Below, piece by piece: positions 15,371 to 34,380 of a stretch of DNA of 34,380 bases; positions within the stretch are counted from its first letter, which is position 1; the number at the start of each line of letters is the position of its first letter. Where the stretch lies: positions 1-34,380 of IMG/VR virus record IMGVR_UViG_3300027969_000256. One strand, given 5' to 3'. The notes beneath the pieces were generated by a model. It ran no database searches and had not been told where the DNA came from. It saw nothing but the letters and a program-made list of their open reading frames with translations. The stretch is from a virus. Made by a program: the position numbers and the translations under genes.

Positions 15371-15645
15371 GTGACGAAGTTTCAAAGATTATGGAGGAGC
15401 TTCACGTTGAGCTTGCCAACGAGTTCTTGAGGCGGGTCAAGATGGGTGATGCAACTCCAGCCGACCTTAACGGAGCTAGGCAGTTCTTACGGGATAACGG
15501 AATTGATGCAGTTGCCTTGCGAGGCTCCCCTCTTCAGAAACTAGCTATGGTATTGCCTTTTGAGGAGCAACAGCTAATAGAGGCTCCAGCCAAGACTTTC
15601 AGCTTGCCAGCACCCGACCAAGTAGATAAGGCTGTTGGATTATGA
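15367..15645 (+). CDS. Terminase small subunit (T7 gp18-like)
   Basis: 92 residues, similar to T7 gp18 (89). The block GDATPADLNGARQFLRDNGI (about residues 26-45) is typical of small terminase subunits in this phage group, and the position ahead of the large subunit is diagnostic. It would bind the DNA concatemer and regulate the large subunit. The start overlaps the preceding stop (ATGA at 15367), and its own stop overlaps the HNH gene start at 15642. Confidence 0.8.
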   Translation: MSDEVSKIMEELHVELANEFLRRVKMGDATPADLNGARQFLRDNGIDAVALRGSPLQKLAMVLPFEEQQLIEAPAKTFSLPAPDQVDKAVGL

Positions 15646-15866
15646 AAGCACGGGATTACAAGAAAGAATACAGGGAGTACCACGGAAATTCCTTGCAAAT
15701 TAAGCACCGGGCTAAACGCAACTCTGCCCGTAGGTTAATGATTCGTAAGCATGGTAAATCAAAGCTTAAGGGCAAGGATGTAGACCATAAAGACGGCAAC
15801 CCCATGAACAACTCCCACGGAAACTTACGGATTACTTCTATTAAGTACAACAGAGCCAAACACTAG
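15642..15866 (+). CDS. Small HNH-type protein between the terminase genes
   Basis: 74 residues, strongly basic. The C-terminal part DVDHKDGNPMNNSHGNLRI is an HNH nuclease core: the DH pair, the second-strand asparagine (GNPMNN) and the NLR block are in place. It could be a free-standing homing endonuclease or a packaging-associated nuclease; small HNH proteins are found next to terminase genes in many phages. It has no zinc-binding CXXC pairs. The start overlaps the small terminase stop and the large terminase begins 24 bases downstream. Confidence 0.72.
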   Translation: MKARDYKKEYREYHGNSLQIKHRAKRNSARRLMIRKHGKSKLKGKDVDHKDGNPMNNSHGNLRITSIKYNRAKH

Positions 15867-19686: not shown

Positions 19687-19959
19687 TTACCTAGTCCCGC
19701 TACTGAAGTAATCGTTGCCCACTTTGGTCGTATAAGAACGAGGGCCATAATAGCTGTCGCCCTGCTTAACTGTGATTCCACCAGCACCGAAATAGGTGTC
19801 ACGAACTTTAGTCACTACACCTGTACTGGTGAAGGCTGTATTGTTCACGATTGTAGTTGTGCCTCTGGACTGATGAGACACACCTAAGAACTCAGACCAG
19901 TTATCTTCAGCCTGTAAGGTTGCGGTTACCAAGGTTAAGGCAATTAATAGTGTTTTCAT
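19687..19959 (-). CDS. Small secreted protein, the only minus-strand gene
   Basis: 90 residues. The start MKTLLIALTLVTATLQA is a clean Sec signal peptide with cleavage expected after LQA, giving a mature protein of about 73 residues. The mature part has degenerate repeats: TKVRDTYFGAGG, VKQGDSYYGPRS, TKVGNDYFSSG. Such G(D/N)xYfg repeats are seen in small exported bacterial proteins of unknown role. Opposite orientation to every other gene, its own promoter and a secretion signal mark it as a probable moron expressed from the prophage. It faces the zincin-like gene convergently and has no partner gene. Confidence 0.7.
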   Translation of the reverse strand: MKTLLIALTLVTATLQAEDNWSEFLGVSHQSRGTTTIVNNTAFTSTGVVTKVRDTYFGAGGITVKQGDSYYGPRSYTTKVGNDYFSSGTR

Positions 19960-20588: not shown

Positions 20589-20617
20589 TTGACACACTTC
20601 ACGCTCTCCAGTATCTT
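20589..20617 (+). promoter_or_regulatory. Strong sigma70 promoter of the amidoligase cassette
   Basis: TTGACA (20589-20594) is a perfect -35 box and TATCTT (20612-20617) a good -10, with a 17-base spacer. The -10 box ends six bases before the ATG at 20624, so the message is predicted to start at or next to the start codon. This is the best bacterial promoter match in the window. Confidence 0.7.
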
Positions 20618-20623
20618 CACCTT

Positions 20624-20725
20624 ATGCAAAACGAAATCTGGACGCTCCTAGCCTTTGGAATCCTCTGCGGAGTAGCAGGGTTTTTCTGGGGTGCGGTTTA
20701 TGTCCTATTAAATAGAAAGAATTAA
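20624..20725 (+). CDS. 33-residue membrane peptide at the head of the amidoligase cassette
   Basis: The peptide starts MQNEIWTLLAFGILCGVAGF and continues FWGAVYVLL before a short basic end (NRKN). It is one hydrophobic helix of about 24 residues with the charge pattern of an inner-membrane protein. It has no Shine-Dalgarno sequence because the promoter lies directly in front, so leaderless translation is likely. It sits seven bases before the amidoligase gene. No family is recognised; a membrane anchor or export-associated role for the amidoligase is inference. Confidence 0.55.
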   Translation: MQNEIWTLLAFGILCGVAGFFWGAVYVLLNRKN

Positions 20726-20732
20726 AAACACT

Positions 20733-21698
20733 ATGAAAAACACACTATATAAAAAGGCACTACGCTGGGGCGGTTTGGATATGAATAAGCACCCTCTAGA
20801 GCTTAAAATGCAGATCGGGAGAAAACTGAAATTCATCGCCCGTCAACTACGCTTCGATTCCACCGATTATCCTATCGGACTCCCTCAAAAACATATCCCT
20901 AGCTTTCAACGGGCTGGGGCGTGGCTCTGGTCTGCTATGCAGGAAAAGAGAAAGGTTCACCGCCCTGCCGTTCCCGTGATGCAACGGGATATGGGTATTC
21001 GTGACCTGCTCAACATCCAGAGCCATAGGGGGGAGTTCATAGGGGTAGAGCTGGAGTTTTTATTGCCTAGGCAGGTCAACGCTACAACCCTTCGCACAAG
21101 TAAATTCATCGCCCTTACTAGTGATGGGAGTATCTGCCCTCCTAATGGCTATATCGGCTTAGAAGCAAATCTAGTCTATGTCCGTGGAATCTCAGAGAAT
21201 CGCCTAGAAACATTCTGCGAAAAACTATCACTATCACAAGCCCAAGTGAACAAGACTTGCGGTCTGCACCTTCACCTAGATCAAAGGAATGTCAGCCGTG
21301 CAACCGCTTGGAGAAGATACCACCGCTTAGTGTCTGCTCTCCCTTGGCTTAAACTTGCCGTGCCTCCCTCCAGAATCGGAAACACCTACTGCAAATTGAA
21401 CGCCGTTGGGGAGAATCCCGAAAACTATGACCGCTATATGGCGATAAACTGGAAGGCATACACCGAACACGGGACGATAGAAATACGACTCCTAAACGGG
21501 ACGACATCAGCCGACAAGATTAAGCATTGGGTTAGCCTTTGCATTGGTGCGAGCCGTAACACACTCCCCACGATTGAAGCGATGACGAATTGCAACGAAA
21601 TCCCACGGGAGGCTAAAGAGTGGTTCATGGCAAGAAAAAGAAAGTTCTATCCCGACAACAACGCAAGCGGGATGAGTGAAGAAGGGTCAGAAGATTAA
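20733..21698 (+). CDS. Amidoligase (glutamine-synthetase-like COOH-NH2 ligase fold)
   Basis: 321 residues. The first 90 are basic and helical, without a known domain. From about 100 the amidoligase_2 pattern appears in order: GVELEF (104-109, metal-binding acids), SDGSI (130-134), GLEANLVY (142-149), CGLHLHLD (176-183), a conserved Arg and Asn in SRIGNTY and RYMAINW (213-240), and TIEIRLLNGT (248-257). This family uses ATP to form amide or peptide bonds, and phage members often sit beside a class II glutamine amidotransferase, as here. The substrate is unknown; cell-wall peptides, a protein or a small metabolite are possible. It has an AAAAACACT leader just before the ATG and a charged, disordered C-terminus (SEEGSED). 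Confidence 0.82.
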   Translation: MKNTLYKKALRWGGLDMNKHPLELKMQIGRKLKFIARQLRFDSTDYPIGLPQKHIPSFQRAGAWLWSAMQEKRKVHRPAVPVMQRDMGIRDLLNIQSHRGEFIGVELEFLLPRQVNATTLRTSKFIALTSDGSICPPNGYIGLEANLVYVRGISENRLETFCEKLSLSQAQVNKTCGLHLHLDQRNVSRATAWRRYHRLVSALPWLKLAVPPSRIGNTYCKLNAVGENPENYDRYMAINWKAYTEHGTIEIRLLNGTTSADKIKHWVSLCIGASRNTLPTIEAMTNCNEIPREAKEWFMARKRKFYPDNNASGMSEEGSED

Positions 21699-21730
21699 AC
21701 ACAACAACCAACCAAAGAAAGAAAAACACT

Positions 21731-22456
21731 ATGTGCATAGCAATACTAAAAACTAAAAACGCAAAGATTAGCAGGAAGCATCTTGAAAACTCTGCTCAAA
21801 GTAATCCAGACGGATTCGGAGTGGCTTGGACAGACGGCCAACGCCTACGCACCTTTAAGACGATGAAGGCTGGAGAGTGGATCGATAAGGTGATGAGCTT
21901 AGAGAAGTCTATCGCTATCATCCACGCCCGTATCACCACGCACGGAGCCACAGACTTAGAAAACTGCCACCCGTTCAGAGTGAGTAAGGGTTTGGCTTTC
22001 ATTCACAATGGATGCCTACCTATATCCACAGCCGACAAGCCAACCCGTTCCGATACTTGGCACTTCAATCAAAAGGTGATGCAACCACTAGTGCGAGACA
22101 CGGGAGGAATCACCGCCCCACTAGTCGAAATGCTCCATGAATATGCCAAGGGGTCTAAACTCTGCTTCCTTAGCTACACGGGAAAATTCATAATCGTAAA
22201 TGAAACGGCAGGGCATTGGGCTGGGGGTGTGTGGTATTCCAACACCTCGTATAAAACTGGAAGCGACTGGTGGAAAACTGGGGGTTATACTTGCCCACCT
22301 TCCTATTATGGCAGATCGCCCGTTCAGCTCATCCCTCCCATTGGGGGAGTAGTCCCGATAGATGATGATGATACCATCGAAAGGATGATAGAGCAGGACT
22401 CTATTAAGAAATGGGAACAGCAATCCTTCCACACCACGGAAGGAGCGTGGGAATGA
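21731..22456 (+). CDS. Class II glutamine amidotransferase (Ntn hydrolase)
   Basis: 241 residues beginning MCIAI, so removal of Met leaves Cys as the N-terminal nucleophile. The expected glutaminase residues follow: NPDGFGVAW (25-33), HAR with Arg67, NCHPF (78-82), HNG (92-94) and SDTW with Asp108. There is no fused synthase domain, so it should release ammonia from glutamine for a partner. The partner is most likely the amidoligase 32 bases upstream. The C-terminal 75 residues (Gly/Trp/Tyr/Pro-rich, then an acidic DDDDTIERM) are not part of the usual core. The leader GAAAAACACT precedes the ATG. Its stop overlaps the start of the next membrane peptide. Confidence 0.85.
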   Translation: MCIAILKTKNAKISRKHLENSAQSNPDGFGVAWTDGQRLRTFKTMKAGEWIDKVMSLEKSIAIIHARITTHGATDLENCHPFRVSKGLAFIHNGCLPISTADKPTRSDTWHFNQKVMQPLVRDTGGITAPLVEMLHEYAKGSKLCFLSYTGKFIIVNETAGHWAGGVWYSNTSYKTGSDWWKTGGYTCPPSYYGRSPVQLIPPIGGVVPIDDDDTIERMIEQDSIKKWEQQSFHTTEGAWE

Positions 22457-22560
22457 TACAGCAAAACCAAAACGACCTATGGGCAGGGGTCAAAGTTTTA
22501 ATCGTGCTGGGATGGCTCTTTCTAGGGCTGGTCAGCTACATTAAAAACCACAACAAATAA
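22453..22560 (+). CDS. 35-residue membrane peptide closing the amidoligase cassette
   Basis: The peptide starts MIQQNQNDLWAGVKVLIVLG, continues WLFLGLVSYI and ends KNHNK: a polar N-terminus, one hydrophobic helix of about 20 residues and a basic C-terminus. The ATG overlaps the stop of the amidotransferase gene (ATGA), so it is translated with it. It mirrors the 33-residue membrane peptide at the start of the cassette. No family is recognised. Confidence 0.6.
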   Translation: MIQQNQNDLWAGVKVLIVLGWLFLGLVSYIKNHNK

Positions 22561-22579
22561 AAAGGAAAAAAAAACACAA

Positions 22580-22621
22580 ATGAAAAACACAATCAAAAAG
22601 CACTACCTTTCAGTACTCTAA
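22580..22621 (+). CDS. Possible 13-residue peptide
   Basis: ATG at 22580 gives MKNTIKKHYLSVL and stops at 22621, preceded by AAAGG and an AAAACACAA leader like those of the neighbouring genes. It ends just before the terminator. It may be a real micro-ORF or the relic of a gene start; length alone cannot decide. Confidence 0.25.
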   Translation: MKNTIKKHYLSVL

Positions 22622-22636
22622 AGAATTGATGCAACA

Positions 22637-22674
22637 AGCGGGGGTGGGGTTCCAATCCCTTCCCCTGCTTTTTT
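22637..22674 (+). terminator. Intrinsic terminator of the amidoligase cassette
   Basis: AGCGGGGG (22637-22644) pairs with TCCCCTGCT-side bases (22662-22669), and after one mismatch GGGG (22646-22649) pairs with CCCT (22657-22660), with loop TTCCAAT. A run of six T follows (22669-22674). It closes the cassette that starts at the promoter at 20589. Confidence 0.8.
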
Positions 22675-22852
22675 GTGCCTAGATGCCTAATGCAACCACA
22701 ACCCCTAGTGGCCTAGCCAAACCAGCACCACCACCCCTTGTGTTGAAAATCCAGAAAAATCCATCCTTCTTACTCTGTAAGGAATATATTCTGTATATAT
22801 GATAGATATATATGATAGTGAATTATGATAGCGAGCCACATTTGGCTGGCAA

Positions 22853-22946
22853 TTACCTGTACGTTTTACCTGTGCGTTTATAAGATGTGCTTATACTTTT
22901 CAAAGAGAGTGTTTTTCCCTTTGCTTTTAATTACCCGTGCGTTTAT
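22853..22946 (+). repeat. Three direct repeats TTACCYGTRCGTTTAT upstream of the integrase genes
   Basis: Copies lie at 22853-22868 (TTACCTGTACGTTTTA), 22866-22881 (TTACCTGTGCGTTTAT) and 22931-22946 (TTACCCGTGCGTTTAT). Start-to-start distances are 13 and 65 bases. The third copy overlaps the spacer and -10 box of the candidate promoter. They resemble binding sites of a DNA-binding protein, either integrase arm sites or operators. Confidence 0.65.
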
Positions 22947-22949
22947 GTT
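22921..22949 (+). promoter_or_regulatory. Candidate sigma70 promoter for the integrase operon
   Basis: TTGCTT (22921-22926) and TATGTT (22944-22949) with a 17-base spacer, eight bases before the ATG at 22958. The match is moderate. A 16-base repeat lies across it, which would allow repression. Confidence 0.35.
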
Positions 22950-22957
22950 CTGCGGAT

Positions 22958-23128
22958 ATGAAACACATAGCCATAACCAAAGACAACTACTACAACCTTC
23001 AACTGCTATACGACAACAGCATTTGTGAGGGAAAGAAACCAACCGATGTCGTCAACTGGAATGGTAATGAGATTCTAGTTGGGTACTTAAAGTATGTCGT
23101 TGAGTACATGAAAGGAATCGTCCTTTGA
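22958..23128 (+). CDS. Small protein coupled to the integrase
   Basis: 56 residues from ATG 22958, starting MKHIAITKDNYYNLQLLYDN, then SICEGKKPTDVV, ending YLKYVVEYMKGIVL. Earlier in-frame starts add unlike residues. I have the impression that ITKDNY...LY-type small proteins precede integrases in related phages. An excisionase-like or integrase-modulating role is possible from position only. Its stop overlaps the TTG start of the integrase (TTGA at 23125-23128), so integrase translation probably depends on it. Confidence 0.6.
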   Translation: MKHIAITKDNYYNLQLLYDNSICEGKKPTDVVNWNGNEILVGYLKYVVEYMKGIVL

Positions 23129-24108
23129 ACGGCTCCATTCAATCAGCAGGGGATTCATTTAATGTATCCTTCACAACCAAAGGCAAGCGTATACGCAGAC
23201 GTTTCGGTTCGATGACGCAAGCCGAGGGTTACCTAATGGACTTACGCAGGGCTTCCATAGCTGGAAAGCCTTTGCCAGAGACCGAGAGCAACCTTACGAC
23301 TTGGCAAGAACTCAAAGACCAGACCTACACTCTTGTTTGGAAGGGAGCCAAAAGCGAGAACACAAGCAAGCTCAACAGCGACCATGTAGTGCGTTACTTC
23401 GGTGCTAGTACACCCGTAGCTCACTTCACGCAAGGAGACCTAGACAACTGGGTGGTATCCTTAAAAGCTCTAGGCAACTCAGATGCGACCATAAACCGCA
23501 AGCTCTCTTGCTTGAGCCGTATGCTTCGGTTTGCCCTTGAAAGAGGATTGGTAACCAAGAGGTTTATCTTTCCGATCAAGAAGGAAACCAAAGGCAGAAT
23601 CCGTTATATCACCGATGCAGAGGCCGAGCAGATTATGGCTAAAGCTGGAGATAAGTTACACCCATTGTTCATGTTCTTGCTTTTTACAGGGGCAAGAGTT
23701 GGTGAAGCCTTGAAGCTGACTTGGGCTGACTTTAACTGGACTAACAAGGTGGTCACATTCTGGGATACTAAGAGTGGTGAAAGCAGGACAATCCCTATGA
23801 CAACTGGCCTAGTCATTGTTATGAACGAGCTGATGGAGGTTGGAGGGGATAGCCCTTTCGGTCACATTAAGCAGTTCGAGGTGAACAGGGCTTGGACAAG
23901 CATAAGAGACCAGATGGGCTTGACGGATGACAAAGAGTTTGTCCCTCATTCCCTTCGTCATACCTGTGCAAGCAGACTTGTTCAACGAGGCGTACCGATT
24001 GTAGTTGTCAAAGAATGGCTGGGACATAAAACAATCCAGATGACTATGAGATACGCACACCTAGCTCCTACAAACCTACTGGAAGCAGTCGGGGCGTTGG
24101 AGAATTAA
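23125..24108 (+). CDS. int: Tyrosine integrase / recombinase
   Basis: 327 residues. An arm-type N-terminal domain (about 1-55) is followed by a core-binding domain (about 55-150, with HFTQGDLDNWV and INRKLSCLSRMLRFAL) and a catalytic domain with the full set: Arg191 in FTGARVGEAL, Lys216, His275 and Arg278 in HSLRHT, His301 in LGHK and Tyr310 in MRYAHL. It should catalyse insertion of the phage at an att site. The start is TTG overlapping the upstream stop. T7-like phages with an integrase ahead of the RNA polymerase gene are known from aquatic bacteria. No attP core was recognised nearby. Confidence 0.92.
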   Translation: MNGSIQSAGDSFNVSFTTKGKRIRRRFGSMTQAEGYLMDLRRASIAGKPLPETESNLTTWQELKDQTYTLVWKGAKSENTSKLNSDHVVRYFGASTPVAHFTQGDLDNWVVSLKALGNSDATINRKLSCLSRMLRFALERGLVTKRFIFPIKKETKGRIRYITDAEAEQIMAKAGDKLHPLFMFLLFTGARVGEALKLTWADFNWTNKVVTFWDTKSGESRTIPMTTGLVIVMNELMEVGGDSPFGHIKQFEVNRAWTSIRDQMGLTDDKEFVPHSLRHTCASRLVQRGVPIVVVKEWLGHKTIQMTMRYAHLAPTNLLEAVGALEN

Positions 24109-24109
24109 C

Positions 24110-24277
24110 ATGGACAACCCTAAACCAGATGAAAAAACCTATACTTTTGTGGAGCGTACCAAAGCTCAAGAAGAGTGGGACAAAGAAATCGGTGAACAAT
24201 GCAAGTGGGATGAATACATCTCTAACAAGCTTGACCGAGAAGATAGGGAAAATCGTAGCGATGATGAAGAAATATGA
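24110..24277 (+). CDS. Hypothetical small acidic protein
   Basis: 55 residues starting one base after the integrase stop: MDNPKPDEKTYTFVERTKAQ, then an EEWDKEIGEQCKWDEYI stretch, ending in an acidic DDEEI. It is highly charged and helical, with no recognised family. Its stop overlaps the next start (ATGA at 24274). The unbroken chain of overlapping starts argues that it is real even though it is short. Confidence 0.55.
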   Translation: MDNPKPDEKTYTFVERTKAQEEWDKEIGEQCKWDEYISNKLDREDRENRSDDEEI

Positions 24278-24510
24278 AACAACTAGAAGCAATAACAACG
24301 GAGGTAGATTACATGAAAATTGAAGCACACAGGAGATTGGAATGGCAGGAGGACTTGTTAAACCAAGCCTTATACAACCTAAAGAAAATGAACTCGTCTC
24401 TTCCCAACGGATTTTGGAAAGAGCTTCAAAACATTTGTACTCAAGTGGACTCTGCTAGATACATAGGCAGGGAAACTATTAACAGACTCAAAGGTGAGGC
24501 AGGTGTGTAA
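24274..24510 (+). CDS. Hypothetical early protein
   Basis: 78 residues starting MKQLEAITTEVDYMKIEAHR; an internal ATG at residue 14 could also serve. It is helical and charged (RLEWQEDLLNQALYNLKKM) without signal peptide or membrane segment. No family is recognised. It overlaps its neighbours on both sides (ATGA at 24274, TAATG at 24508-24512). Confidence 0.55.
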   Translation: MKQLEAITTEVDYMKIEAHRRLEWQEDLLNQALYNLKKMNSSLPNGFWKELQNICTQVDSARYIGRETINRLKGEAGV

Positions 24511-24749
24511 TGATTACCAATGGTGTTGAACAGAAACCTAGCACTATGGCTATGCTTGAACTTGCTGACCGGATTCATACACATCCAGCAGGAAGTACAT
24601 GGGTTGTTCCTTCGGGCTTCTCCGTGTGGAAGCCTCAGTCCAAGCGTAAAGTTGTGCAAGTAGTGGGAGACAACAGCGAAGTGAACGGAAGGCTCAAGCG
24701 AATCTTCATGGAACTTGGCTGGTCAGTTGTTGAGAGGGAGCTTTTGTAA
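24510..24749 (+). CDS. Hypothetical early protein
   Basis: 79 residues: a helical N-terminus (MAMLELADRIHTHP) and a beta-type C-terminal half (GSTWVVPSGFSVWKPQ, KVVQVVGDNSEVNGRLKRIF). No family is recognised. The start overlaps the upstream stop and the stop overlaps the next start, consistent with coupled translation in the early operon. Confidence 0.55.
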   Translation: MITNGVEQKPSTMAMLELADRIHTHPAGSTWVVPSGFSVWKPQSKRKVVQVVGDNSEVNGRLKRIFMELGWSVVERELL

Positions 24750-24922
24750 TGTGCAAAACAATAATCGATCTAACAATTTACCTACTGCTAATTCTTTTTG
24801 GCTCTATAGGGCTAGGAGTTGGCTTATTGCTTCTTTGTTTTCTCTGGTGGTTAGGAGAAAGATTCGTAGACGGAATAAAAGAAGAACTAGAAATTAGGAG
24901 ATACAATGACAAAGACTCATAA
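24749..24922 (+). CDS. Small membrane protein
   Basis: 57 residues. Residues 5-36 are almost entirely hydrophobic (IIDLTIYLLLILFGSIGLGV, then GLLLLCFLWWLG), long enough for one long or two short membrane helices, followed by a charged tail (ERFVDGIKEELEIRRYNDKD). It could be an early inner-membrane protein acting on the host or against superinfection; the function is not visible. It overlaps the next gene by 17 bases. Confidence 0.55.
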   Translation: MCKTIIDLTIYLLLILFGSIGLGVGLLLLCFLWWLGERFVDGIKEELEIRRYNDKDS

Positions 24923-25082
24923 ATTTATAAAGCAACTCACAGATTCCTATGGACGATACATTCAGAAGTGGGGAGTCTTTGAACAGATACTTGAAACAGG
25001 CATTTTTAAACCCCGTGTGTATGAACGGCTATTAAAATCATTCGACAGCTTACGAGAAGCCAGCCTACATTTAAACAAATGA
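24906..25082 (+). CDS. Hypothetical small basic protein
   Basis: 58 residues starting MTKTHKFIKQLTDSYGRYIQ, followed by KWGVFEQILETGIFKPRVYE and LLKSFDSLREASLHLNK. It is helical and basic, compatible with a small nucleic-acid or protein binding factor, but no family is recognised. The ATG has AGGAG about seven bases upstream. Its stop overlaps the next start (ATGA at 25079). Confidence 0.5.
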   Translation: MTKTHKFIKQLTDSYGRYIQKWGVFEQILETGIFKPRVYERLLKSFDSLREASLHLNK

Positions 25083-25366
25083 CTACCTTTGAAGTACCCT
25101 TTAGGGATGTTTATTACATGAGTCATGGTGATGCAGATACAGCCCAATACATTAACGGAGTGGCGACCTTTGAGGTTGTTGATGATAAGGAGTATCCCTT
25201 TCGTTACATAGATGCCAATGATGTTTGGGCAAGCTCTCCACTAGGGGCTTACCAAGTAGACACCGATACGGATGAGCATAGGAAGCTTGTTCGTATAGCC
25301 GTTGAGGATGATGAGAAGGTATGGAAGTCTGCTAAAAAGATTGCTAAAACAAAGAAGCTCATTTGA
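25079..25366 (+). CDS. Hypothetical protein coupled to the RNA polymerase
   Basis: 95 residues, acidic and beta-rich in the first two thirds (TTFEVPFRDVYYMSHGDADT, then VATFEVVDDKEYPF), with a basic end KSAKKIAKTKK. No family is recognised. The TGA stop overlaps the TTG start of the RNA polymerase, so it probably sets the polymerase translation level. Confidence 0.55.
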   Translation: MTTFEVPFRDVYYMSHGDADTAQYINGVATFEVVDDKEYPFRYIDANDVWASSPLGAYQVDTDTDEHRKLVRIAVEDDEKVWKSAKKIAKTKKLI

Positions 25367-27621
25367 GTTTAACGCAAACACAACTAGACCATAAGGCAGT
25401 ATACGAAGCACAACTAAAGCGGGACAAAGCCAAGGCTAGGAATGTCTCTTCTGGCAGGGAGAGCTTATCTGGTGGTCAAGGCTTTTTGTTACGCCATTCA
25501 GTTGCTTCCGTAGCTGAGACAATAGCCCTATGGATTGATAAGGCCCAGACTTCACCCGGCCCTAAGCACAAGTCGGTTGCTTTGATGGTGCAACTAAAGC
25601 CTCTGGAGCTTTCGGCCCTCACCTGTAGGGCGGTGCTGAATGGCATATCCACCCAAAGAGCCTTTGCCTCTGTAGCTTTTGAACTAGGTAGGCTTGTAGA
25701 GCATGAAGCAAGGCTAAAAGAAAGCCCCAGTAAAGAGTGGAACAGAATCAAAAGAAGGATGAAACTACGCAAGGGGCATAAACACAAGATGCAGACGGCT
25801 TTCCGTGGGATGAGTAACAAGACTATATCTTGGGGTACGATTGAGAAGGCTTCAATAGGTGGGGTACTCATCGAACTCTTTATTAAAAGCACAGGGCTTT
25901 GTGAGGTGGTGACTACAAGGACTAGTAAGACGAGGATGAACTACATTGTTGCAACTAAATCCTGTTCTGAGTGGATGAAGGAGTTTGAGGGTACGGAGGT
26001 GCTTCGGCCTCTTATGCTTCCAAGGGTAGAGGCTGGTTCAGACCCTAATGTATTCTGGGTTAAGTGTAGATCAAAGAAGCAGGAAGCTCTTTACAAGACC
26101 CAGCCAGAAGTTGTACGGGATTGCGTACAGGCTATGCAACAGGTGGCATGGAGGATTAATACGGATGTGCTGGAGGTGCTGGATACCTACTACAAGAATG
26201 GACTAGAGATTAATGGGGAACCCGTGAACTGCCACAAGGAGGTGATTAGGGAGAACTTGGATGCTCTTACACCAGACCAAGCCAAAGCCAGAATCAAGGG
26301 AATGTGGAGGTCGCATACTTACAATGTCTGGAACAGAGCTAGGGGTTACTTCATCACTCAACAGATTCTCATGGCTAAAGAACTCCAAGGCCAGCCCTAC
26401 TACTTACCCGTGCAACTAGACTTCAGAGGCCGGGTGTATTACCTGCCTACCCATATTGGGCCACAGCGGGATGATATCTCTAAAGCCTTGGGTGACTTTG
26501 ATGAAGCCGTTCCTTTGACTGAGGAAGGCAAGTACTGGTTCAAGGTAGCTGGTTCTGCTCACTTCGGGTGTGACAAGGTTAGCTATGAGGAGCGTGTAGC
26601 GTGGGCTGAATTGCATGATAGCGATATAAGAAAGGTTGTTGCTGACCCCTACGGGTGTAGGTGGTGGCATGAGGCTGACGAGCCTTGGCAATTCTTGAGG
26701 TGGTGCTTTGCTTGGGTTAATGGAGCTGAAAAGTATCCAGTATGCCTAGATGCTACGAGTAACGGCTTACAGATTCTTTCCCTGCTTACGGGCGATGCAG
26801 AGACAGCTCTTCTTACTAATGTACTACCCAGCGATGTACCCAAGGACATTTACGGGGCTATAGCTCTAAAGGTACAACACAACCTATTGGGTACTCCGGG
26901 GGAGCTGGCTACCTTCTGGTTGCACCACGGATGCAACAGGAAGCTGGTAAAAAGGCCCGTTATGACCATTCCGTATGGGGTATCTAGGTATGGAATGTCT
27001 CAACAGCTCATGGAACAAACCAACTGCTCTATAGTCCAAGGGCTTTACCTAGCTGATTTGATAATCAAAGCGTTGGGTGAACTGGTTCAAGCTCCACAAG
27101 AGACTATGGTTTGGTTGAAGCAACTAGCCAAAATACCAACAGACAATGGCTGTCCTATGGTATGGGTTAGTCCTTCTGGTTTTCCTGTATACCAGCCCTA
27201 TTTCGTAAGCAAGTCCAAGTCCGTCAAGTTGCGTATTGGTGACACCATTAGGTACATGAACTTAACCAACCAGATAACCAGCAAGCTAGACAGGGAAGCA
27301 CAGATCAACAGCTTTGCCCCCAACTTCATTCACAGCCTCGATGCAAGTGTTGTTCATGTCTCCGTGCAGAGAATGAATAAGGCAAACATAAAAAGCCTTT
27401 TTACAATTCACGATTGTTTTGGTTGTCATGCAAGTCGTGTTCCTGCTATGAGGAAAGTTGTGGCAGAAACTATGAGGGACATATTTAAAAATCCTTTGCT
27501 CAAGGCTCTTAAGACGGAAGTAGCTTCATCTATTAGTTTGCCTACTAACTTCATTTTAGAGCCTTTCTACGGCGGTTTTCATATTGACCAGATAATCCAT
27601 AGTCCCTACCTTATTAAATAA
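25363..27621 (+). CDS. Single-subunit DNA-directed RNA polymerase (T7-like)
   Basis: 752 residues, shorter than T7 gp1 (883), mostly at the N-terminus. The catalytic set is complete: Asp463 in CLDATSNGLQ (T7 D537), Lys530 and Tyr538 in KRPVMTIPYG (T7 K631, Y639) and Asp684 in TIHDCFG (T7 D812). It transcribes the phage middle and late genes from its own promoters, which I could not define. The TTG start overlaps the previous stop (TTGA); the first plausible ATG is far inside the protein, so TTG is the best choice. A weak start could keep polymerase low during lysogeny. Confidence 0.95.
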   Translation: MSLTQTQLDHKAVYEAQLKRDKAKARNVSSGRESLSGGQGFLLRHSVASVAETIALWIDKAQTSPGPKHKSVALMVQLKPLELSALTCRAVLNGISTQRAFASVAFELGRLVEHEARLKESPSKEWNRIKRRMKLRKGHKHKMQTAFRGMSNKTISWGTIEKASIGGVLIELFIKSTGLCEVVTTRTSKTRMNYIVATKSCSEWMKEFEGTEVLRPLMLPRVEAGSDPNVFWVKCRSKKQEALYKTQPEVVRDCVQAMQQVAWRINTDVLEVLDTYYKNGLEINGEPVNCHKEVIRENLDALTPDQAKARIKGMWRSHTYNVWNRARGYFITQQILMAKELQGQPYYLPVQLDFRGRVYYLPTHIGPQRDDISKALGDFDEAVPLTEEGKYWFKVAGSAHFGCDKVSYEERVAWAELHDSDIRKVVADPYGCRWWHEADEPWQFLRWCFAWVNGAEKYPVCLDATSNGLQILSLLTGDAETALLTNVLPSDVPKDIYGAIALKVQHNLLGTPGELATFWLHHGCNRKLVKRPVMTIPYGVSRYGMSQQLMEQTNCSIVQGLYLADLIIKALGELVQAPQETMVWLKQLAKIPTDNGCPMVWVSPSGFPVYQPYFVSKSKSVKLRIGDTIRYMNLTNQITSKLDREAQINSFAPNFIHSLDASVVHVSVQRMNKANIKSLFTIHDCFGCHASRVPAMRKVVAETMRDIFKNPLLKALKTEVASSISLPTNFILEPFYGGFHIDQIIHSPYLIK

Positions 27622-27622
27622 T

Positions 27623-27862
27623 ATGACAACAAAATACACATTCACAAGTGAGGACATTGAGACGGGGGAATCCTATGGGTTTCCAAAATCTAAAACTACT
27701 ATTGAATTTGAAGCTAAGGATATTTTTGAAGTCCTTCAAAGTTTCCAGCAATTCTTAAGAGGTAGTGGTTTTTATCCGTCTGGTCGTCTTGAATTTGTGG
27801 ACGATGAAGATACTGACCCACTTCAGCCTAACCTAACTGGTTTTGAATTAAATTCCAAGTAG
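27623..27862 (+). CDS. Hypothetical protein between RNA polymerase and ssDNA-binding protein
   Basis: 79 residues, acidic. Starts MTTKYTFTSEDIETGESYGF; residues 20-55 alternate beta and helix (KTTIEFEAKDIFEVLQSFQQ). Small proteins here in related phages are uncharacterised; T7 has gp2-like host RNA polymerase inhibitors in this part of the genome, but no similarity to gp2 is visible. It begins two bases after the polymerase stop. Confidence 0.55.
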   Translation: MTTKYTFTSEDIETGESYGFPKSKTTIEFEAKDIFEVLQSFQQFLRGSGFYPSGRLEFVDDEDTDPLQPNLTGFELNSK

Positions 27863-27912
27863 GCTAGAGCTAAAACACAACAACACAAAACACAGAAAGG
27901 TAAAAACACAAA

Positions 27913-28554
27913 ATGGATAAGAAGTATAATCGTGTACGTTTGACCAGCCCTAAAGGTGTGGCGATGTACCCAAAGCTCAACAGAGCTGATACTAAATTCA
28001 ATGAAGATGGTGTTTATTCTACGAAACTTTTAGTTTCCAAAGAAGAAGCTACTTCATTCGTTCAGTCGGTAAAACAACTCCTCAAAGAATACTACGAGGA
28101 GACTTGCAAACAGCAGAAGAAGAATAAGCTCAAGCTCGCAGACTACCCTTGGAAAGAAAACGAGGATGGTGACAAGCTAGAGATTAACTTCAAATTGCCA
28201 GCCAAGGTCAAGACCAAGAACGGGGAAATCATTGAAATGCGTCCCGCCTTGTTCGACAGCAAAGGGTCGCCGTGCGACAAGTTGATCGGTGGCGGTTCTA
28301 CAATCAAGATTGGTTGTGAAGCTAGTCCTTGGTTTGTACCAGCGTTGGGGGTTGGGGTAACCCTTCGTCTCCGTGCGGTGCAAGTGATTGACCTCAAAGA
28401 GCCTTCTTCTGGTGGCTCTAGCTTTGAAAGCTTCGGCTTCTCTTCGGAAGAAGAGGGCTTTGTAGCTCAAGGCGAAACATTCCCAGAACTAACCAAACCC
28501 AAGGAGTCCTCAAGTGTACCGAGCAAAACGCCCGAACTACCAGAGGACTTCTAA
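27913..28554 (+). CDS. Single-stranded DNA-binding protein (T7 gp2.5-like)
   Basis: 213 residues, close to T7 gp2.5 (232). The OB-fold part carries family blocks (RVRLTSPKGVAMYPKLNRAD, KLADYPWKENEDG, and WFVPALGVGVTLRLRAVQV), and the C-terminus is a long acidic/Ser-rich tail ending PELPEDF, with the terminal aromatic residue that gp2.5 uses to contact polymerase and helicase. It has a 50-base C/A-rich leader ending AAAAACACAAA before the ATG. The endonuclease gene overlaps its 3' end by 41 bases. Confidence 0.9.
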   Translation: MDKKYNRVRLTSPKGVAMYPKLNRADTKFNEDGVYSTKLLVSKEEATSFVQSVKQLLKEYYEETCKQQKKNKLKLADYPWKENEDGDKLEINFKLPAKVKTKNGEIIEMRPALFDSKGSPCDKLIGGGSTIKIGCEASPWFVPALGVGVTLRLRAVQVIDLKEPSSGGSSFESFGFSSEEEGFVAQGETFPELTKPKESSSVPSKTPELPEDF

Positions 28555-28903
28555 ATATAGAAGCGGTCTCGAAGTCCAGATTGCGTCCCAGCTTGAAAAG
28601 GCTGGGGTGCAGTTTGGCTACGAAACTATTCGACTAAAATATCAAAGAATATGTCATTACATTCCAGACTTTATACTTCCAAACGGAGTGCTGATCGAAG
28701 GAAAGGGTTGGTTCACTCCGCAGGACAGGAGCAAGTTACTCCTACTAAAGAAGCAAGACCCAAGTTTAGACATCCGATTGGTTTTTTCCAAGTCTACAGC
28801 TCGTCTAAACAAGAAGTCCCGCACCACCTACGGAGAGTGGTCAACGACAAACGGGTTCCTCTGGAGTGAAAAAGTAATTCCGCAGGAATGGCTGACTTTT
28901 TAA
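28514..28903 (+). CDS. Endonuclease I / Holliday junction resolvase (T7 gp3-like)
   Basis: 129 residues (T7 gp3 is 149). The PD-(D/E)XK site is visible: FRSGLE-type YRSGLEVQIASQLEKAG, then YIPDFILPNGVLIEGKGWF with Asp, Glu and Lys in the T7 order (PDF...E.KG). LDIRLVFSKS and TYGEW also match gp3. It resolves branched replication intermediates and digests host DNA. The GTG start at 28514 has AAGGAG seven bases upstream and lies inside the ssDNA-binding gene. The helicase start overlaps its end. Confidence 0.9.
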   Translation: MYRAKRPNYQRTSKYRSGLEVQIASQLEKAGVQFGYETIRLKYQRICHYIPDFILPNGVLIEGKGWFTPQDRSKLLLLKKQDPSLDIRLVFSKSTARLNKKSRTTYGEWSTTNGFLWSEKVIPQEWLTF

Positions 28904-30483
28904 GACATACAGAGTGTAGTAAGTGTGGCTCATCAGATGCCCGTGCGGAGTATTCTGATGGGTCAGCTTACTGCTTCTCTTGTTCCGCATATTCTAAAAG
29001 CAACGGGGAGATAAAGGAGAAACCAAATATTTATATGGCTAACTTAATTGAAGGTAATGTTACTGCTTTGACCAAACGCAATATCCACATGGAGACTTGC
29101 CAGAAGTTCGGTTACAAGCTTGGAGACTTTAACGGCAAGCCCGTCCAGATCGCAGAGTACAAAGACAAAGAAGGAAACCCAGTAGCCCAGAAGCTACGCT
29201 TCCCTAACAAGGACTTTATGATTCTTGGGGAAGCCTCCGAGATGACCTTGTTTGGACAGCATTTGTTTAGGGATGGTGGCAAGATGCTTGTCATTACTGA
29301 AGGTGAGATTGATTGCCTTTCTGTATCCCAAGCTCAAGGCAACAAGTGGCCTGTAGTATCTATTCCTACTGGTGCTCAATCTGCTACCAAGGCACTTCGT
29401 AGAAACATAGATTGGGTGGAGAAGTTTGAGAAGGTCGTGTTCATGTTCGATATGGATGAGGCAGGTAAGAAGGCTTCAAAGGAATGTGCATCTTTGTTGA
29501 GTCCGGGGAAAGCTAGGATTGCTTCGTTGCAGATGAAGGACGCTAACGAGTTACTTGTTGCTGGCAGAGGGCCAGAGATTATTGATGCTATATGGAGTGC
29601 TAAAGAGTTTAGGCCAGATGGAATTGTAGGGGGTAACGAGCTTTGGGATTACATTACCAAGGTTGACCTAGAAGAATCTGTATCTTACCCATACGCAGGT
29701 GTATCGGCCATGACCCACGGATTGCGTAAAGGAGAGCTAGTTACCATTTGTGCTGGTTCTGGTATTGGAAAGAGCCAGTTCTGTAGGGAGATTGCTCATT
29801 GGCTTCTACGCAATAACAAGAGCATTGGCTACATCGCCCTTGAGGAGTCAGTAAGGCGTACAGCATTGGGCATTCTAGCGATTGAAGCCAGTAAGCCGTT
29901 GCACCTAAAGCCAGACAGCATAACCCAAGAGGAACTAAAGAACCTTTTCAATGGTACTATTAGTCAGAAGTTCTTTACCTATGACCACTTCGGTTCCTTG
30001 GATTCGGATAACCTACTCAACAGAGTAAGGTACATGGCTAGGGGTTGTGGTTGTGAGTACATCGTACTAGACCACTTGAGTATCGTGGTATCTGGTATGG
30101 GTGACGGAGACGAGCGTAGGCTTATCGACAACACTATGACCAAGCTCCGTAGTCTTGTGGAAGAACTAAAGATCGGGATGATTCTTGTTTCCCATCTTAA
30201 GCGTCCAGAAGGCAGGGGGCATGAAGATGGTGCAACCACCAGCCTGTCACAGCTTCGAGGCTCTGCTGGTATTGCCCAGCTTTCAGACATTGTGATTGGC
30301 CTAGAGCGTGACCAGCAAGCCGAGGGTAACGACAGGAACATTACTAGTGTTCGTATTCTTAAGAATAGGTTTACTGGAGAAACTGGTATTAGTTGTCGCC
30401 TTGAGTACAGCAAGGAAACAGGTCGGCTCAAGGAGATTGCTATACCCGATTCAGAGATTGAAGTGCCAGAAGAATTAGAATAA
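28888..30483 (+). CDS. Primase-helicase (T7 gp4-like)
   Basis: 531 residues (T7 gp4A is 566). An N-terminal zinc motif, Cys10/Cys13 and Cys29/Cys32, recognises primase sites. The TOPRIM core shows ITEGEIDCLS and MFDMDEAGKK. The helicase domain has Walker A GSGIGKSQ, Walker B VLDHLSIV and a late RGSAGIAQLSD block as in gp4. The C-terminus is acidic (SEIEVPEELE), which in T7 binds polymerase. It overlaps the endonuclease gene by 16 bases. Confidence 0.93.
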   Translation: MADFLRHTECSKCGSSDARAEYSDGSAYCFSCSAYSKSNGEIKEKPNIYMANLIEGNVTALTKRNIHMETCQKFGYKLGDFNGKPVQIAEYKDKEGNPVAQKLRFPNKDFMILGEASEMTLFGQHLFRDGGKMLVITEGEIDCLSVSQAQGNKWPVVSIPTGAQSATKALRRNIDWVEKFEKVVFMFDMDEAGKKASKECASLLSPGKARIASLQMKDANELLVAGRGPEIIDAIWSAKEFRPDGIVGGNELWDYITKVDLEESVSYPYAGVSAMTHGLRKGELVTICAGSGIGKSQFCREIAHWLLRNNKSIGYIALEESVRRTALGILAIEASKPLHLKPDSITQEELKNLFNGTISQKFFTYDHFGSLDSDNLLNRVRYMARGCGCEYIVLDHLSIVVSGMGDGDERRLIDNTMTKLRSLVEELKIGMILVSHLKRPEGRGHEDGATTSLSQLRGSAGIAQLSDIVIGLERDQQAEGNDRNITSVRILKNRFTGETGISCRLEYSKETGRLKEIAIPDSEIEVPEELE

Positions 30484-30501
30484 GGAAGTTAAAAACACAA
30501 C

Positions 30502-32340
30502 ATGAAAACACTCATATTTGATTTGGAATCAGATCATCTAGTCGAAAAGACTACCAAGATTCATTGTTTGGTAATTACAGACATGGATTCTGGTGCAACC
30601 ACAAGGTACAACCAACAGCCTAACGGCAACTCTATTGAAGCTGGAATCAAAGAACTAGCTAATGCCGACAGGATTATAGGCCACAACATAATTGGGTTTG
30701 ACTTGCTTGTTCTTAAGAAGCTCTATAGCTGGTTCGTAGCTCCAAAGGTGATAGAGGATACTTTGGTATTGACTAGGCTCATTTGGCCCGACCTAAAAGA
30801 GAATGACTTCTCTAGGCTTAACGATGGGTTCCCCAAAGAGATGATTGGTTCCCATTCGCTCAAGGCTTGGGGTATCCGTATTGGATTGCAGAAGGGTGAC
30901 TTCAAGGAGAACAACAGCTTTGAAGTCTGGACTCCAGCTATGGAGGATTACTGCGTACAAGATGTAGCCGTTACCTTGAAGCTCTACAGACTTATCCAGA
31001 CCAAGAACCCATCTAAAGCTAGTGTTGATCTAGAACATGAGTTTGCAAAGATAATGCAGAATCAAGAATCCTACGGCTTTAAGTTTGACCATACCAAAGC
31101 TGAAGCTCTATGTGCTTTACTTCAGAAGAAGAGGGCAGAGATTGAGGCGAATATGCAAGCGGTGTTTCCTCCAGATGAGGAAGAGATGAAGTCTAACTTA
31201 TGGGTAACGCAAGACGGAAAAGAATGGACAACCAAGAAGTCAGCAGTACAGGCTGGTTACAAGGCAAAGGACATTGTTAAAGGTGGCAAGAAAAAGAAAA
31301 TCATCCCGTTCAACCCCGGAAGCAGAGACCAGATCGCAAACCGCTTTATCAAAAAGGGCTGGAAGCCCCAAGAGTTTACACCAGATGGCAAACCCAAAGT
31401 TGACGAACAAGTGCTTACGGCTCTTGAAAGGATGGGCTTCGCAGAGGCCAAACCCCTCTTAGAATACTTACTTGTATCAAAGCGACTAGGCCAGCTTGCA
31501 GAGGGTAACGAGGCTTGGATGAAGCTGGTTAAAGCTGATGGTCGTATGCACGGAAGGGTAATCACTAACGGAGCAGTAACAGGTCGTTGCACACATCGAG
31601 GGCCAAACATGGCTCAAGTACCCAGAGTAGGGTCAGCTTATGGTGAAGAGTGCCGTAGCCTCTTTGTAGCTACAAACGGCTTTAAACTGATTGGAGCAGA
31701 TGCCAGCGGGATTGAGTTGCGTTGCTTGGCTCACTTCATGGCTCCTTATGACGGAGGTAGCTACGCCAAGGTGCTTCTTGAAGGAGACATCCACACAGCT
31801 AATCAACAAGCGTCTGGGTTGCCCACTAGAAACGATGCCAAGACCTTTATCTACGCCTTCTTGTACGGAGCAGGGCCAGCCAAGATTGGTAGCATCATCA
31901 ACAAAGGCGAGAGGGAAGGCCGTAAGATTATTGACCAGTTCCAGACCAAGCTCCCAGCAATCAAGAGGCTTAAGGATGCCGTTGAGTTGGCAGTAAACCA
32001 GAGGGGTTACTTGATCGGTCTGGATGGCAGACACCTTCCTGTTCGCTCTGCTCACGCCTCTTTAAATGTCCTTCTTCAGTCAGCAGGGGCTTTAATTATG
32101 AAAAGGGCAACCATTAATTTAGTTAGGTCGCTGAAGGAGCAAGGTTACGAGTTTGCTAAGGACTATGGCATTGTCGCCCACATCCACGATGAACTACAGA
32201 TTGAGGCTAAATGTGGCATTGAGGAGCTAGTCGGTAATACAGCAGTAGCCTCTATACGCCAAGCAGGTAGCGATTTTAAGTTCCGATGCCCCCTTGACGG
32301 AGAGTTTAAAATCGGCTTTAATTGGGCAGAGACACATTGA
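30502..32340 (+). CDS. DNA polymerase A family with 3'-5' exonuclease (T7 gp5-like)
   Basis: 612 residues, shorter than T7 gp5 (704). The exonuclease is intact: Asp7 and Glu9 in IFDLESD, and the GHNIIGFDLLVLKK motif. The polymerase palm has motif A IGADASGIELRCLAHF, motif B RNDAKTFIYAFLYGAG and motif C HIHDELQIEA. The last residues FRCPLDGEFKIGFNWAE match the end of T7 gp5. The thioredoxin-binding loop appears shorter than in T7. The leader is AAAAACACAAC. A LAGLIDADG gene follows the stop directly. Confidence 0.95.
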   Translation: MKTLIFDLESDHLVEKTTKIHCLVITDMDSGATTRYNQQPNGNSIEAGIKELANADRIIGHNIIGFDLLVLKKLYSWFVAPKVIEDTLVLTRLIWPDLKENDFSRLNDGFPKEMIGSHSLKAWGIRIGLQKGDFKENNSFEVWTPAMEDYCVQDVAVTLKLYRLIQTKNPSKASVDLEHEFAKIMQNQESYGFKFDHTKAEALCALLQKKRAEIEANMQAVFPPDEEEMKSNLWVTQDGKEWTTKKSAVQAGYKAKDIVKGGKKKKIIPFNPGSRDQIANRFIKKGWKPQEFTPDGKPKVDEQVLTALERMGFAEAKPLLEYLLVSKRLGQLAEGNEAWMKLVKADGRMHGRVITNGAVTGRCTHRGPNMAQVPRVGSAYGEECRSLFVATNGFKLIGADASGIELRCLAHFMAPYDGGSYAKVLLEGDIHTANQQASGLPTRNDAKTFIYAFLYGAGPAKIGSIINKGEREGRKIIDQFQTKLPAIKRLKDAVELAVNQRGYLIGLDGRHLPVRSAHASLNVLLQSAGALIMKRATINLVRSLKEQGYEFAKDYGIVAHIHDELQIEAKCGIEELVGNTAVASIRQAGSDFKFRCPLDGEFKIGFNWAETH

Positions 32341-32721
32341 GTGAGACAACCTAATGAAATTGAACTTTCGTATCTTGCTGGGTACTTTGACGGAGAAGGC
32401 TGTATTCATATCTCAAAAATTGGAGCTAGGGTTGTTGCTATTAAATCGTGTTACCCGAAAGTTGTTCAGAGATTTTATAAAATATATGGGGGCTGGTTTA
32501 AAAAATTTCCTAATAAGGGCAAAACAAAAGTATGGAGGCATTTTTATTATTTTCGGATATACGGCGACGAAGCACTCTATGTTATCCATAGCTTATTCCC
32601 ATTTCTGCGTGAGAAAAAGGAGCAAGCTAGATTGTTTATTAAATATAGCTCCTCAAAGGATGCTCATACTAAAGCCCAATATGCTATGCAAATTAAAAGT
32701 TTAAAAAAGGTAAAATACTAG
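32341..32721 (+). CDS. LAGLIDADG homing endonuclease, free-standing
   Basis: 126 residues starting GTG directly after the polymerase stop codon (zero-base spacing). The motif YLAGYFDGEGCI (residues 11-22) is a LAGLIDADG helix with the acidic residue in place; only one motif is present, so the enzyme should act as a dimer. The C-terminus is Lys-rich. The gene is AT-rich and differs in style from the polymerase and exonuclease on each side, indicating insertion. No intron is needed, since the polymerase reading frame is intact. Its target may be the equivalent junction in related phages. Confidence 0.75.
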   Translation: MRQPNEIELSYLAGYFDGEGCIHISKIGARVVAIKSCYPKVVQRFYKIYGGWFKKFPNKGKTKVWRHFYYFRIYGDEALYVIHSLFPFLREKKEQARLFIKYSSSKDAHTKAQYAMQIKSLKKVKY

Positions 32722-32725
32722 ATTT

Positions 32726-33469
32726 ATGAAAAACACAAAAAACACACTACTAATAGACGGCGATTGGCTTGCCTTCTGGCATACAATTACCAATGAATAC
32801 CCCTGTGATTGGGGTAACGATATGTGGACTCTCCACGGAGATGTCAAAACAGCTACGCAGACCATTACTGCGTTTCTTGTAGAGCTAAAGGAGGAGCTGA
32901 AGGCCGATAGTATCAAAGTAGCTTTGTCCGACAGCACCAACTGGAGAAAGAGGATTCTGCCTACCTACAAAGAAAGCCGTAAGAAGCTTAGAAAGCCCCT
33001 TCTTTACCCAAGGGTTAGGGAATGGCTTGTTGCTGAGTATAAGGCCGAGATGCAACCGACCCTAGAAGCAGACGATTTGTTGGGTATCTGGGCTACTGAA
33101 CTAGATGGTAAAGCTATTGTAGTTGGCGAGGACAAAGACTTTAAACAACTCCCAGCAAAGCATTACAACCCTCACAAGGCTGAAGAAGGAGTGATTGAGG
33201 TATCCAAGGAGCAAGCCGATTGGTGGCATTTATTCCAAGCCCTTACGGGTGACCAGACAGACGGCTACACAGGTCTGGTAGGCTGTGGCCCAAAGACCGC
33301 TGAGAAGATACTTGGGCCTGTTGGCTCTAAAGGGCTATGGGACAAGGTTCTCAAGGCTTACGCTAAAGAAGGTGTTCCAGAATCAGAAGCCTTAGTACAA
33401 GCTAGGGTTTCTCGTATCTTGAGAAAAGGTGAATACAAAAACAATGAGGTAATACTATGGCAACCTTGA
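32726..33469 (+). CDS. 5'-3' exonuclease (T7 gp6-like)
   Basis: 247 residues (T7 gp6 is 300). The N-terminal LLIDGDWLAFWH, the RKRILPTYKESRK helix, LEADDLLG and VVGEDKDFKQLPAKH, and the helix-hairpin-helix GLVGCGPKTAEKIL are the flap-endonuclease/5'-exonuclease hallmarks with the metal-binding acids present. It removes primers and digests host DNA. It follows the inserted homing endonuclease gene by four bases. Right after the ATG come the repeated AAAAACACA units seen elsewhere. Confidence 0.9.
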   Translation: MKNTKNTLLIDGDWLAFWHTITNEYPCDWGNDMWTLHGDVKTATQTITAFLVELKEELKADSIKVALSDSTNWRKRILPTYKESRKKLRKPLLYPRVREWLVAEYKAEMQPTLEADDLLGIWATELDGKAIVVGEDKDFKQLPAKHYNPHKAEEGVIEVSKEQADWWHLFQALTGDQTDGYTGLVGCGPKTAEKILGPVGSKGLWDKVLKAYAKEGVPESEALVQARVSRILRKGEYKNNEVILWQP

Positions 33470-33759
33470 GTGTATACATAAGCGGAGCGATGACGGGGCT
33501 ACCAGAATGTAACTACCCCGCCTTTCACGCTAAAGCTACTGAATTGCGAGCCAAAGGTTATGTAGTTCGCAACCCAGCAGAAAACTTTGATGGGGATACT
33601 ACCCTGCCGAGGTGGATGTATCTAAAGGAGGATATTAAGAATCTCTTAAGCTCTGATCGTATTGTATTTCTTCCGGGGTTTGAGAAGAGTGCCGGGGCTT
33701 TACTAGAAGCTTTGGTTGCACGGGAATGTAATATCTTGACATTGGGGGAACACGAATGA
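33457..33759 (+). CDS. DUF4406-type nucleoside deoxyribosyltransferase-like protein
   Basis: 100 residues. YISGAMTGLPECNYPAFHA at the start, GYVVRNPAEN in the middle and IVFLPGFEKSAGALLEALVA in the C-terminal part are the DUF4406 pattern, a Rossmann-like fold related to nucleoside 2-deoxyribosyltransferases. It may act in nucleotide salvage or hydrolysis during replication, but no reaction is shown. It overlaps the exonuclease gene by 13 bases and the next gene by four. Confidence 0.8.
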   Translation: MATLSVYISGAMTGLPECNYPAFHAKATELRAKGYVVRNPAENFDGDTTLPRWMYLKEDIKNLLSSDRIVFLPGFEKSAGALLEALVARECNILTLGEHE

Positions 33760-34130
33760 GTGATGTAGTTGTTAAAGACTCTGGTAAAAGACAGAACTTT
33801 GATACTGGTTCTGTTAGGGATACCAACGAGAACAAGGGTCGGTTTGACCTGCTTCCTCCTTACGCTTTGTTTATGTGGGCTAGGCAACTTGAAGAAGGAG
33901 CCAAGAAATACGCATCACGCAACTGGGAAAAAGGCCAGCCATTGAGTCGTTACGCTAACTCTGCGTTGCGTCATTTAACTAAACATCTTGCTGGAATGAA
34001 GGATGAAAGGCATGACGTGGCTACTCTGTGGAATATTGGAGCGATGATAGAGACAAAACATAGGATTGACAAAGGCTTGCTACCAAAGGAGTTGGATGAC
34101 TTGCCAAAGGAGGATTATGGCTGGCTATAA
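33756..34130 (+). CDS. DUF5664-type protein (predicted dATP/dGTP diphosphohydrolase)
   Basis: 124 residues. KGRFDLLPPYALFMWARQLE, GAKKYASRNWEKGQPLSRY and SALRHLTKHLAGMKDERHDVATLWNI follow the DUF5664 / MazG-like helical pyrophosphohydrolase pattern with clustered acidic and His residues. Members are predicted to hydrolyse purine dNTPs. It lies next to the DUF4406 gene (four-base overlap), suggesting a shared role in shaping the nucleotide pool. No modified-base synthetase is visible in the window. Confidence 0.75.
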   Translation: MSDVVVKDSGKRQNFDTGSVRDTNENKGRFDLLPPYALFMWARQLEEGAKKYASRNWEKGQPLSRYANSALRHLTKHLAGMKDERHDVATLWNIGAMIETKHRIDKGLLPKELDDLPKEDYGWL

Positions 34131-34332: not shown

Positions 34333-34336
34333 ATTT

Positions 34337-34380
34337 ATGTGTATGGGAGGAGGAGGAGGAAGTTATAAAGCACCAGTTAT
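34337..34380 (+). CDS. Start of a glycine-rich gene (truncated by window edge)
   Basis: ATG 34337 with AGGGAG about ten bases upstream begins MCMGGGGGSYKAPV and runs off the window. Short proteins with MC(x)GGGGG starts sit just before the portal gene in many T7-like environmental phages, so portal and scaffold genes probably lie just beyond this edge. Confidence 0.55.
   Translation, partial: MCMGGGGGSYKAPV

Follow-up and report, generated by a model that had tools for sequence, protein, structure and literature searches.

The amidoligase and class II glutamine amidotransferase (GATase) genes described here are very probably the exchangeable cargo of an accessory-gene slot, carried by a T7-like phage with an integrase. 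The slot is framed on the left by a predicted promoter and the gene of a short membrane peptide (ORF1), and on the right by the gene of a second membrane peptide (ORF4), followed by a hairpin terminator; the enzyme genes lying between the two sides are exchangeable. We count the membrane peptides as parts of the slot, not of the enzyme system. Taken as a whole, the best explanation for the locus is a slot that holds amide-making enzymes together with peptides which are independent of them, and to this reading we assign a probability of roughly 0.7.

The window, that is, the whole stretch of DNA that was analysed, is the complete 34,380-base IMG/VR record IMGVR_UViG_3300027969_000256. The features of the slot and its surroundings are the following:

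20589..20617, + strand, predicted sigma-70-type promoter TTGACA-N17-TATCTT (TTGACA at 20589-20594, TATCTT at 20612-20617)
20624..20725, + strand, ORF1, single-TM peptide of 33 aa, constant left-hand part of the slot (dN/dS 0.14, 10 genomes)
20733..21698, + strand, Amidoligase_2 (COOH-NH2 ligase), 321 aa (PF12224, E 1.5e-15; phrog_2443)
20743..22470, + strand, exchangeable segment, the whole of it replaced in the sister phage G010 (blastn, boundary alignments)
21731..22456, + strand, stand-alone class II glutamine amidotransferase, 241 aa, Cys2 as nucleophile (PF13230, E 1e-7)
22453..22560, + strand, ORF4, 35-aa single-TM peptide, right constant part of the slot (dN/dS 0.18, 10 genomes)
22580..22621, + strand, stub MKNTIKKHYLSVL left over after deletion within a small gene, uniting the two ends of an ORF of about 90 aa
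22636..22672, + strand, GC-rich hairpin with T run, which can serve as terminator (-23.5 kcal/mol, z -3.9)
22853..22946, + strand, direct repeats TTACCTGTGCGTTTAT, candidate arm sites for the integrase encoded downstream of them
23125..24108, + strand, tyrosine integrase, downstream of the slot (PF00589, E 4.8e-30)

Phage type and position of the slot

The assignment to the T7-like phages made in the original prediction was borne out by profile searches, in which a single-subunit RNA polymerase (PF00940, E 8e-80), a Gp10A-like capsid protein (E 8e-60) and a T7-type terminase (NF033889, E 4e-203) were matched, as expected of an Autographiviridae-like phage. The slot is located between the terminase-side genes and the region of the integrase and RNA polymerase.

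Several other observations were made on this genome. A Shine-Dalgarno sequence is not evident before most genes of the window, and AAAAACAC is found immediately 5' of an ATG five times versus 0.18 expected (window 20724, 21722, 22570, 27902 and 30491), with three of the five sites falling inside the slot; this sequence may be a start element of the phage or its host different from Shine-Dalgarno. An ORF on the minus strand (19687-19959) with a signal-peptide-like start, MKTLLIALTLVTATLQAEDNWSEF, is also present beside the slot in relatives, and two small ORFs (15642-15866 and 32341-32721) look, by eye only, like homing endonucleases of the HNH and LAGLIDADG types. Tandem TATATATGATAG repeats occur at window positions 22790-22820, and contigs of several relatives start or stop nearby. 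That these contig ends near 22790 are physical genome ends was considered and rejected, since one of the genomes (G001, of about 39.2 kb) closes on itself via a 123-bp overlap and the breaks adjoin short tandem repeats, so that assembly is the simpler cause.

Replacement of the cargo in a sister phage

The slot reading is built on a clean replacement of the cargo, known from one genome only, together with mosaic divergence among the relatives. The genome with the replacement, contig IMGVR_UViG_3300032281_000336 (G010, 38.6 kb), is collinear with the window in blastn from 1 to 20742 at 92.6% and from 22796 to 34380 at 97.3%, and window positions 22471-22788 are matched by two pieces (22471-22563 and 22628-22788) at 85% and 94%. 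Boundary alignments place the left junction of the replacement at the start codon of the amidoligase and the right one within the opening codons of ORF4. No amidoligase match was obtained in G010, which is without either enzyme; instead, its cargo consists of a 45-aa ORF, a DUF932 protein (E 4e-24) and a GP88 protein (E 6e-25). Around this cargo, G010 retains the promoter, ORF1 (MQNETWTLLTFGILCLVAGFFWGAVYVLLNRKK), ORF4 (MEPTKDLWAGVKILIVLGWLFLGLVSYIKNHSK) and the hairpin, in which one outer pair has gone from G-C to T-A with both sides changed.

Conservation and mosaic divergence among relatives

Both enzymes and both peptides are also encoded on seven further IMG/VR contigs (L002-L008), while one fragment (L009) contains ORF1 and the amidoligase start and another (L028) the GATase and ORF4. 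In the survey of the four ORFs that had been proposed as a check, all close relatives with the enzymes were found to keep both peptides, which are present in 8/8 genomes having the complete enzyme pair and slot.

In L003/G002, the backbone is about 70% identical to the window and the slot DNA 83% (blastn), and the synonymous difference, 0.71 for the flanking gene, falls to 0.50 for the amidoligase and 0.22 for ORF1. In six close genomes, the cargo is more diverged, with a pS of about 0.5 versus 0.22 for the flanking gene. Both patterns of divergence are expected from recombination of the slot between phages, and they suggest that slot contents move between diverged phages.

The cassette had been described as self-contained, and this part did not hold, since relatives contain extra genes after ORF4 and the window itself keeps the stub of one. 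In most relatives, further small genes are found between ORF4 and the hairpin, namely one of two CxxC ORFs (52 aa and about 97 aa, respectively) or a third ORF that measures about 90 aa. The last of these is intact in L004 and L005 (MKNTIEKHYL...KKYLSVL), and the window copy is the relic of an internal deletion. As the CxxC ORFs after ORF4 vary among relatives, they represent a second variable part of the slot; such small ORFs (L003 7836-8197, and after ORF4 in L002, L004 and L008) are zinc-ribbon-like and have no assigned family. When more slot contents were sought via the slot-flanking protein, the new close contigs were without the slot in the stretch covered and the distant loci inspected belonged to other phages. 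The slot was also absent from the distant integrase relatives inspected (L031, L033, L035, L036 and L041).

Predicted expression of the slot and a candidate attachment site

The promoter TTGACA-N17-TATCTT was found at its predicted place. There are 12 promoter-like sites in the window versus 12.2 expected, a single site thus not being above chance, and conservation is the one basis on which we predict a promoter here: the TTGACA -35 box is retained in 9/10 genomes, G010 included. The -10 box ends 7 nt before the ATG of ORF1, and, given this short gap, the ORF1 transcript is probably leaderless. At the other end, the terminator that had been expected after ORF4 was recovered as the hairpin with its T run. 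Promoter and terminator are both conserved across relatives, their activity being predicted only.

With these elements, host RNA polymerase would transcribe the slot, either at an early stage of infection or once the phage genome has integrated. If the former is true, the slot would be a class I early region, and its cargo would be host-takeover or counter-defence genes that host promoters switch on within minutes of the onset of lytic infection; T7 genes 0.3-0.7 are an example of such host-promoter early genes. We give this possibility a little less than even odds. It agrees with the host-type promoter, with the start of the slot 4.8 kb before the RNA polymerase gene and with the early genes of the Pelagibacter phage (pelagiphage) HTVC019P, which occupy the equivalent place. 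In HTVC019P, small accessory or early genes, the integrase and the RNA polymerase follow each other in that order, although the gene content is another and no amidoligase pair is annotated there. Similarly, the T7-like Roseobacter phages CRP-171 and CRP-125 have GP88, part of the alternative cargo of G010, at the right end after the terminase, although neither an integrase beside GP88 nor framing peptides are annotated in them. Therefore, GP88 in the Roseobacter phages and the gene order of HTVC019P identify the location as a known kind of accessory region. However, a strong terminator parts the slot from the integrase and polymerase genes, and neither the amidoligase/GATase nor the DUF932/GP88 cargo gave a match to known defence systems in PADLOC.

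Transcription from an integrated copy would imply that the slot forms one end of a prophage and acts in lysogenic conversion. A tRNA-like attachment site would then have the hairpin as its 3' end, and the cassette would come to lie beside the host junction, its own promoter being active in lysogens. We regard this as plausible but more doubtful than an early region. The hairpin consists of a 7-bp outer stem, a 4-5-bp inner stem and a 7-nt loop, mostly TTCnAnT, and in this form it resembles the acceptor and T arm of a tRNA; the loop is T-loop-like in most of ten genomes, although L004 breaks the consensus. The integrase gene is located 0.45 kb downstream, with the direct repeats near it. The tRNA-like shape of the hairpin, together with the integrase and the repeats just downstream, makes an attachment site plausible, and the hairpin is a possible, though unproven, candidate for the core of such a site. 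No tRNA genes were detected in the window by ARAGORN. T7-like cyanophages possess tRNA-Leu attachment sites, but they integrate without stable lysogeny (PMC8776855). Moreover, the hairpin is also an ordinary terminator, and when the genomes of 84,980 bacterial and archaeal species were scanned for the amidoligase and the integrase, neither a prophage nor an amidoligase relative came up, and all integrases recovered were distant or partial. Prophage morons and lysogenic conversion loci are comparable in that they, too, place additional genes close to an integrase, with a promoter and a terminator of their own, the counterparts of which are predicted in the window.

The enzyme pair

The genes for the amidoligase and the GATase are adjacent and co-directional, and in the profile search that had been suggested for both enzymes they exceeded the cut-offs of the Amidoligase_2 family (PF12224, 58.2 bits, cut-off 22) and of the class II GATase family (PF13230, 32 bits, cut-off 23). 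The GVELEF, CGLHLHLD and TIEIRL motifs are all in the amidoligase, which is related to other phage amidoligases (hhalign 99.3%); the residues E106 and E108 (acidic pair), H179 and H181 (HxH), and E250 and R252 (ExR) are invariant in 11 phage amidoligases. At its N-terminus, the protein has an additional helical segment of about 90 aa. Its AF2 model, built with only 8 close sequences, has a pLDDT of 46 and is too poor to test a glutamine-synthetase-like fold, and a sequence search of the PDB gave no convincing relative for it. The GATase starts with MC and has the Arg67, HNG and Asp108 that were originally noted, Cys2, Arg67, His92-Asn93-Gly94 and Asp108 being invariant in 13 GATases. In a Foldseek search, its AF2 model matched GlmS, EgtC and PurF with a probability of 1.0 and E-values as low as 9.7e-7, at moderate TM-scores of about 0.5, which indicates an N-terminal-nucleophile hydrolase fold. 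Membrane or secretion features were found in neither enzyme, and no ORF for a third enzyme (ATP-grasp or AIG2) is present between the promoter and the hairpin.

Class II GATases free ammonia from glutamine, and GCS/GS-like ligases use ATP for carboxylate activation. Judging from family membership, it is likely that the pair carries out glutamine-dependent amide synthesis. In this reaction, the GATase would liberate ammonia from glutamine and the amidoligase would activate a carboxylate with ATP and form the amide in the cytoplasm, the carboxylate possibly being some host or phage metabolite or peptide.

The enzyme pair itself is not new. That an amidoligase and a class II GATase occur together in phages, as the original prediction stated, has already been described (PMC10580990, citing Iyer et al. 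2009 for the phiEco32 pair, and the Marvin paper), and the pair is also described in PMC3890496. The two enzyme families are found adjoining or near each other, and in the same order as in the window, in phiEco32, the LUZ24-like UFV-P2, Marvin (gp105/106), Ottawa (gp65/66) and Shrooms (gp97/98) (Arthrobacter phages), and Methylophilales MEP401/402, and they share catalytic residues with the window pair where aligned. UFV-P2 differs in having an ATP-grasp or AIG2 (GGCT-like) partner, which the window pair does not have; Marvin and Ottawa are likewise simple pairs, so the third enzyme is optional. Three traits distinguish the window from the known phage pairs: the two framing TM peptides with promoter and terminator, the distinct N-terminal segment of the amidoligase, and the replacement of the pair as a block in a sister phage.

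The two membrane peptides

The 33-aa and 35-aa membrane peptides are present as placed in the original prediction. Among the short ORFs of the window, 6/52 are TM-like, so that short ORFs alone are not above chance, and it is their conservation across relatives and the dN/dS values given above which show that ORF1 and ORF4 are genuine genes. ORF1 is kept in 10/10 genomes covering it, and so is ORF4 (10/10). The TM segments and the mostly basic C-ends of both are preserved across relatives.

While G010 has the peptides without the enzymes, the reverse is seen at eight distant amidoligase-GATase loci (Ottawa, Shrooms, Marvin, MEP401, MEP402 and L016-L018), at none of which a flanking pair of TM peptides was found; the only TM-like ORF near any of them is located 357 nt upstream in MEP401. 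Peptides and enzymes are therefore separable both ways, and we consider it quite probable that ORF1 and ORF4 are functionally independent of the amidoligase and GATase. They would be membrane proteins whose own role does not depend on the amidoligase pair. Peptides of the ORF1/ORF4 type were absent from the other phage groups that could be searched, and this leaves room for a role serving both cargos. ORF1 and ORF4 could then form a constant membrane chassis for whichever cytosolic enzyme pair sits between them, with the effector being changed by a swap in the middle of the operon while promoter and terminator are kept, but we hold this to be unlikely.

The original prediction went further and saw in the locus a moron with four parts. 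The accessory, moron-like unit, the enzyme families and the frame of promoter and terminator stand, whereas the assignment of the two peptides to an amidoligase/GATase system is not supported. In a dedicated system of this kind, the peptides would tether the enzymes to the membrane or control them there, and peptidoglycan or surface peptides would be modified at that site in order to exclude other phages. Such a system would be in line with the constant presence of both peptides beside the complete enzyme pair, with the purifying selection on them and with the overlap of the ORF4 start and the GATase stop, by which translation could be coupled. Nevertheless, it is very unlikely, since the peptides of G010 enclose unrelated cargo, the eight distant enzyme pairs are without such a peptide pair and neither enzyme has a feature of secreted or membrane proteins. 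The suggested role at the envelope, in superinfection exclusion or in host conversion, rested mainly on the peptides and loses its main support when these are separated from the enzymes; once they are set aside, there is no evidence that would single out peptidoglycan or surface peptides. Least credible of all is that ORF1 and ORF4 serve chiefly for recombination or as leaders for translation and that their protein sequence is irrelevant. In favour of it, the cargo replacement stops within a few codons of both, ORF1 is apparently leaderless and ORF4 overlaps the GATase stop; against it, the constraint at the protein level is strong (dN/dS 0.14 and 0.18) and TM segments and mostly basic C-ends are maintained.

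Significance of the slot

In the reading that we prefer, a slot with amide-making enzymes and independent peptides, phages would exchange both different cargos and alleles of one cargo by homologous recombination at the conserved frame. The limited literature searched gave no description of interchangeable cargo enclosed by a fixed pair of membrane peptides. What is read from one genome as a four-gene system can prove to be a fixed frame with replaceable cargo, and the frame sequences offer a handle for collecting further cargo of this phage group. If the peptides were general partners of the cargo, the locus would be a modular phage effector platform. Failing that, it would be an accessory hotspot with enzyme pairs, amidoligase/GATase and DUF932/GP88, useful for working out the functions of those families.
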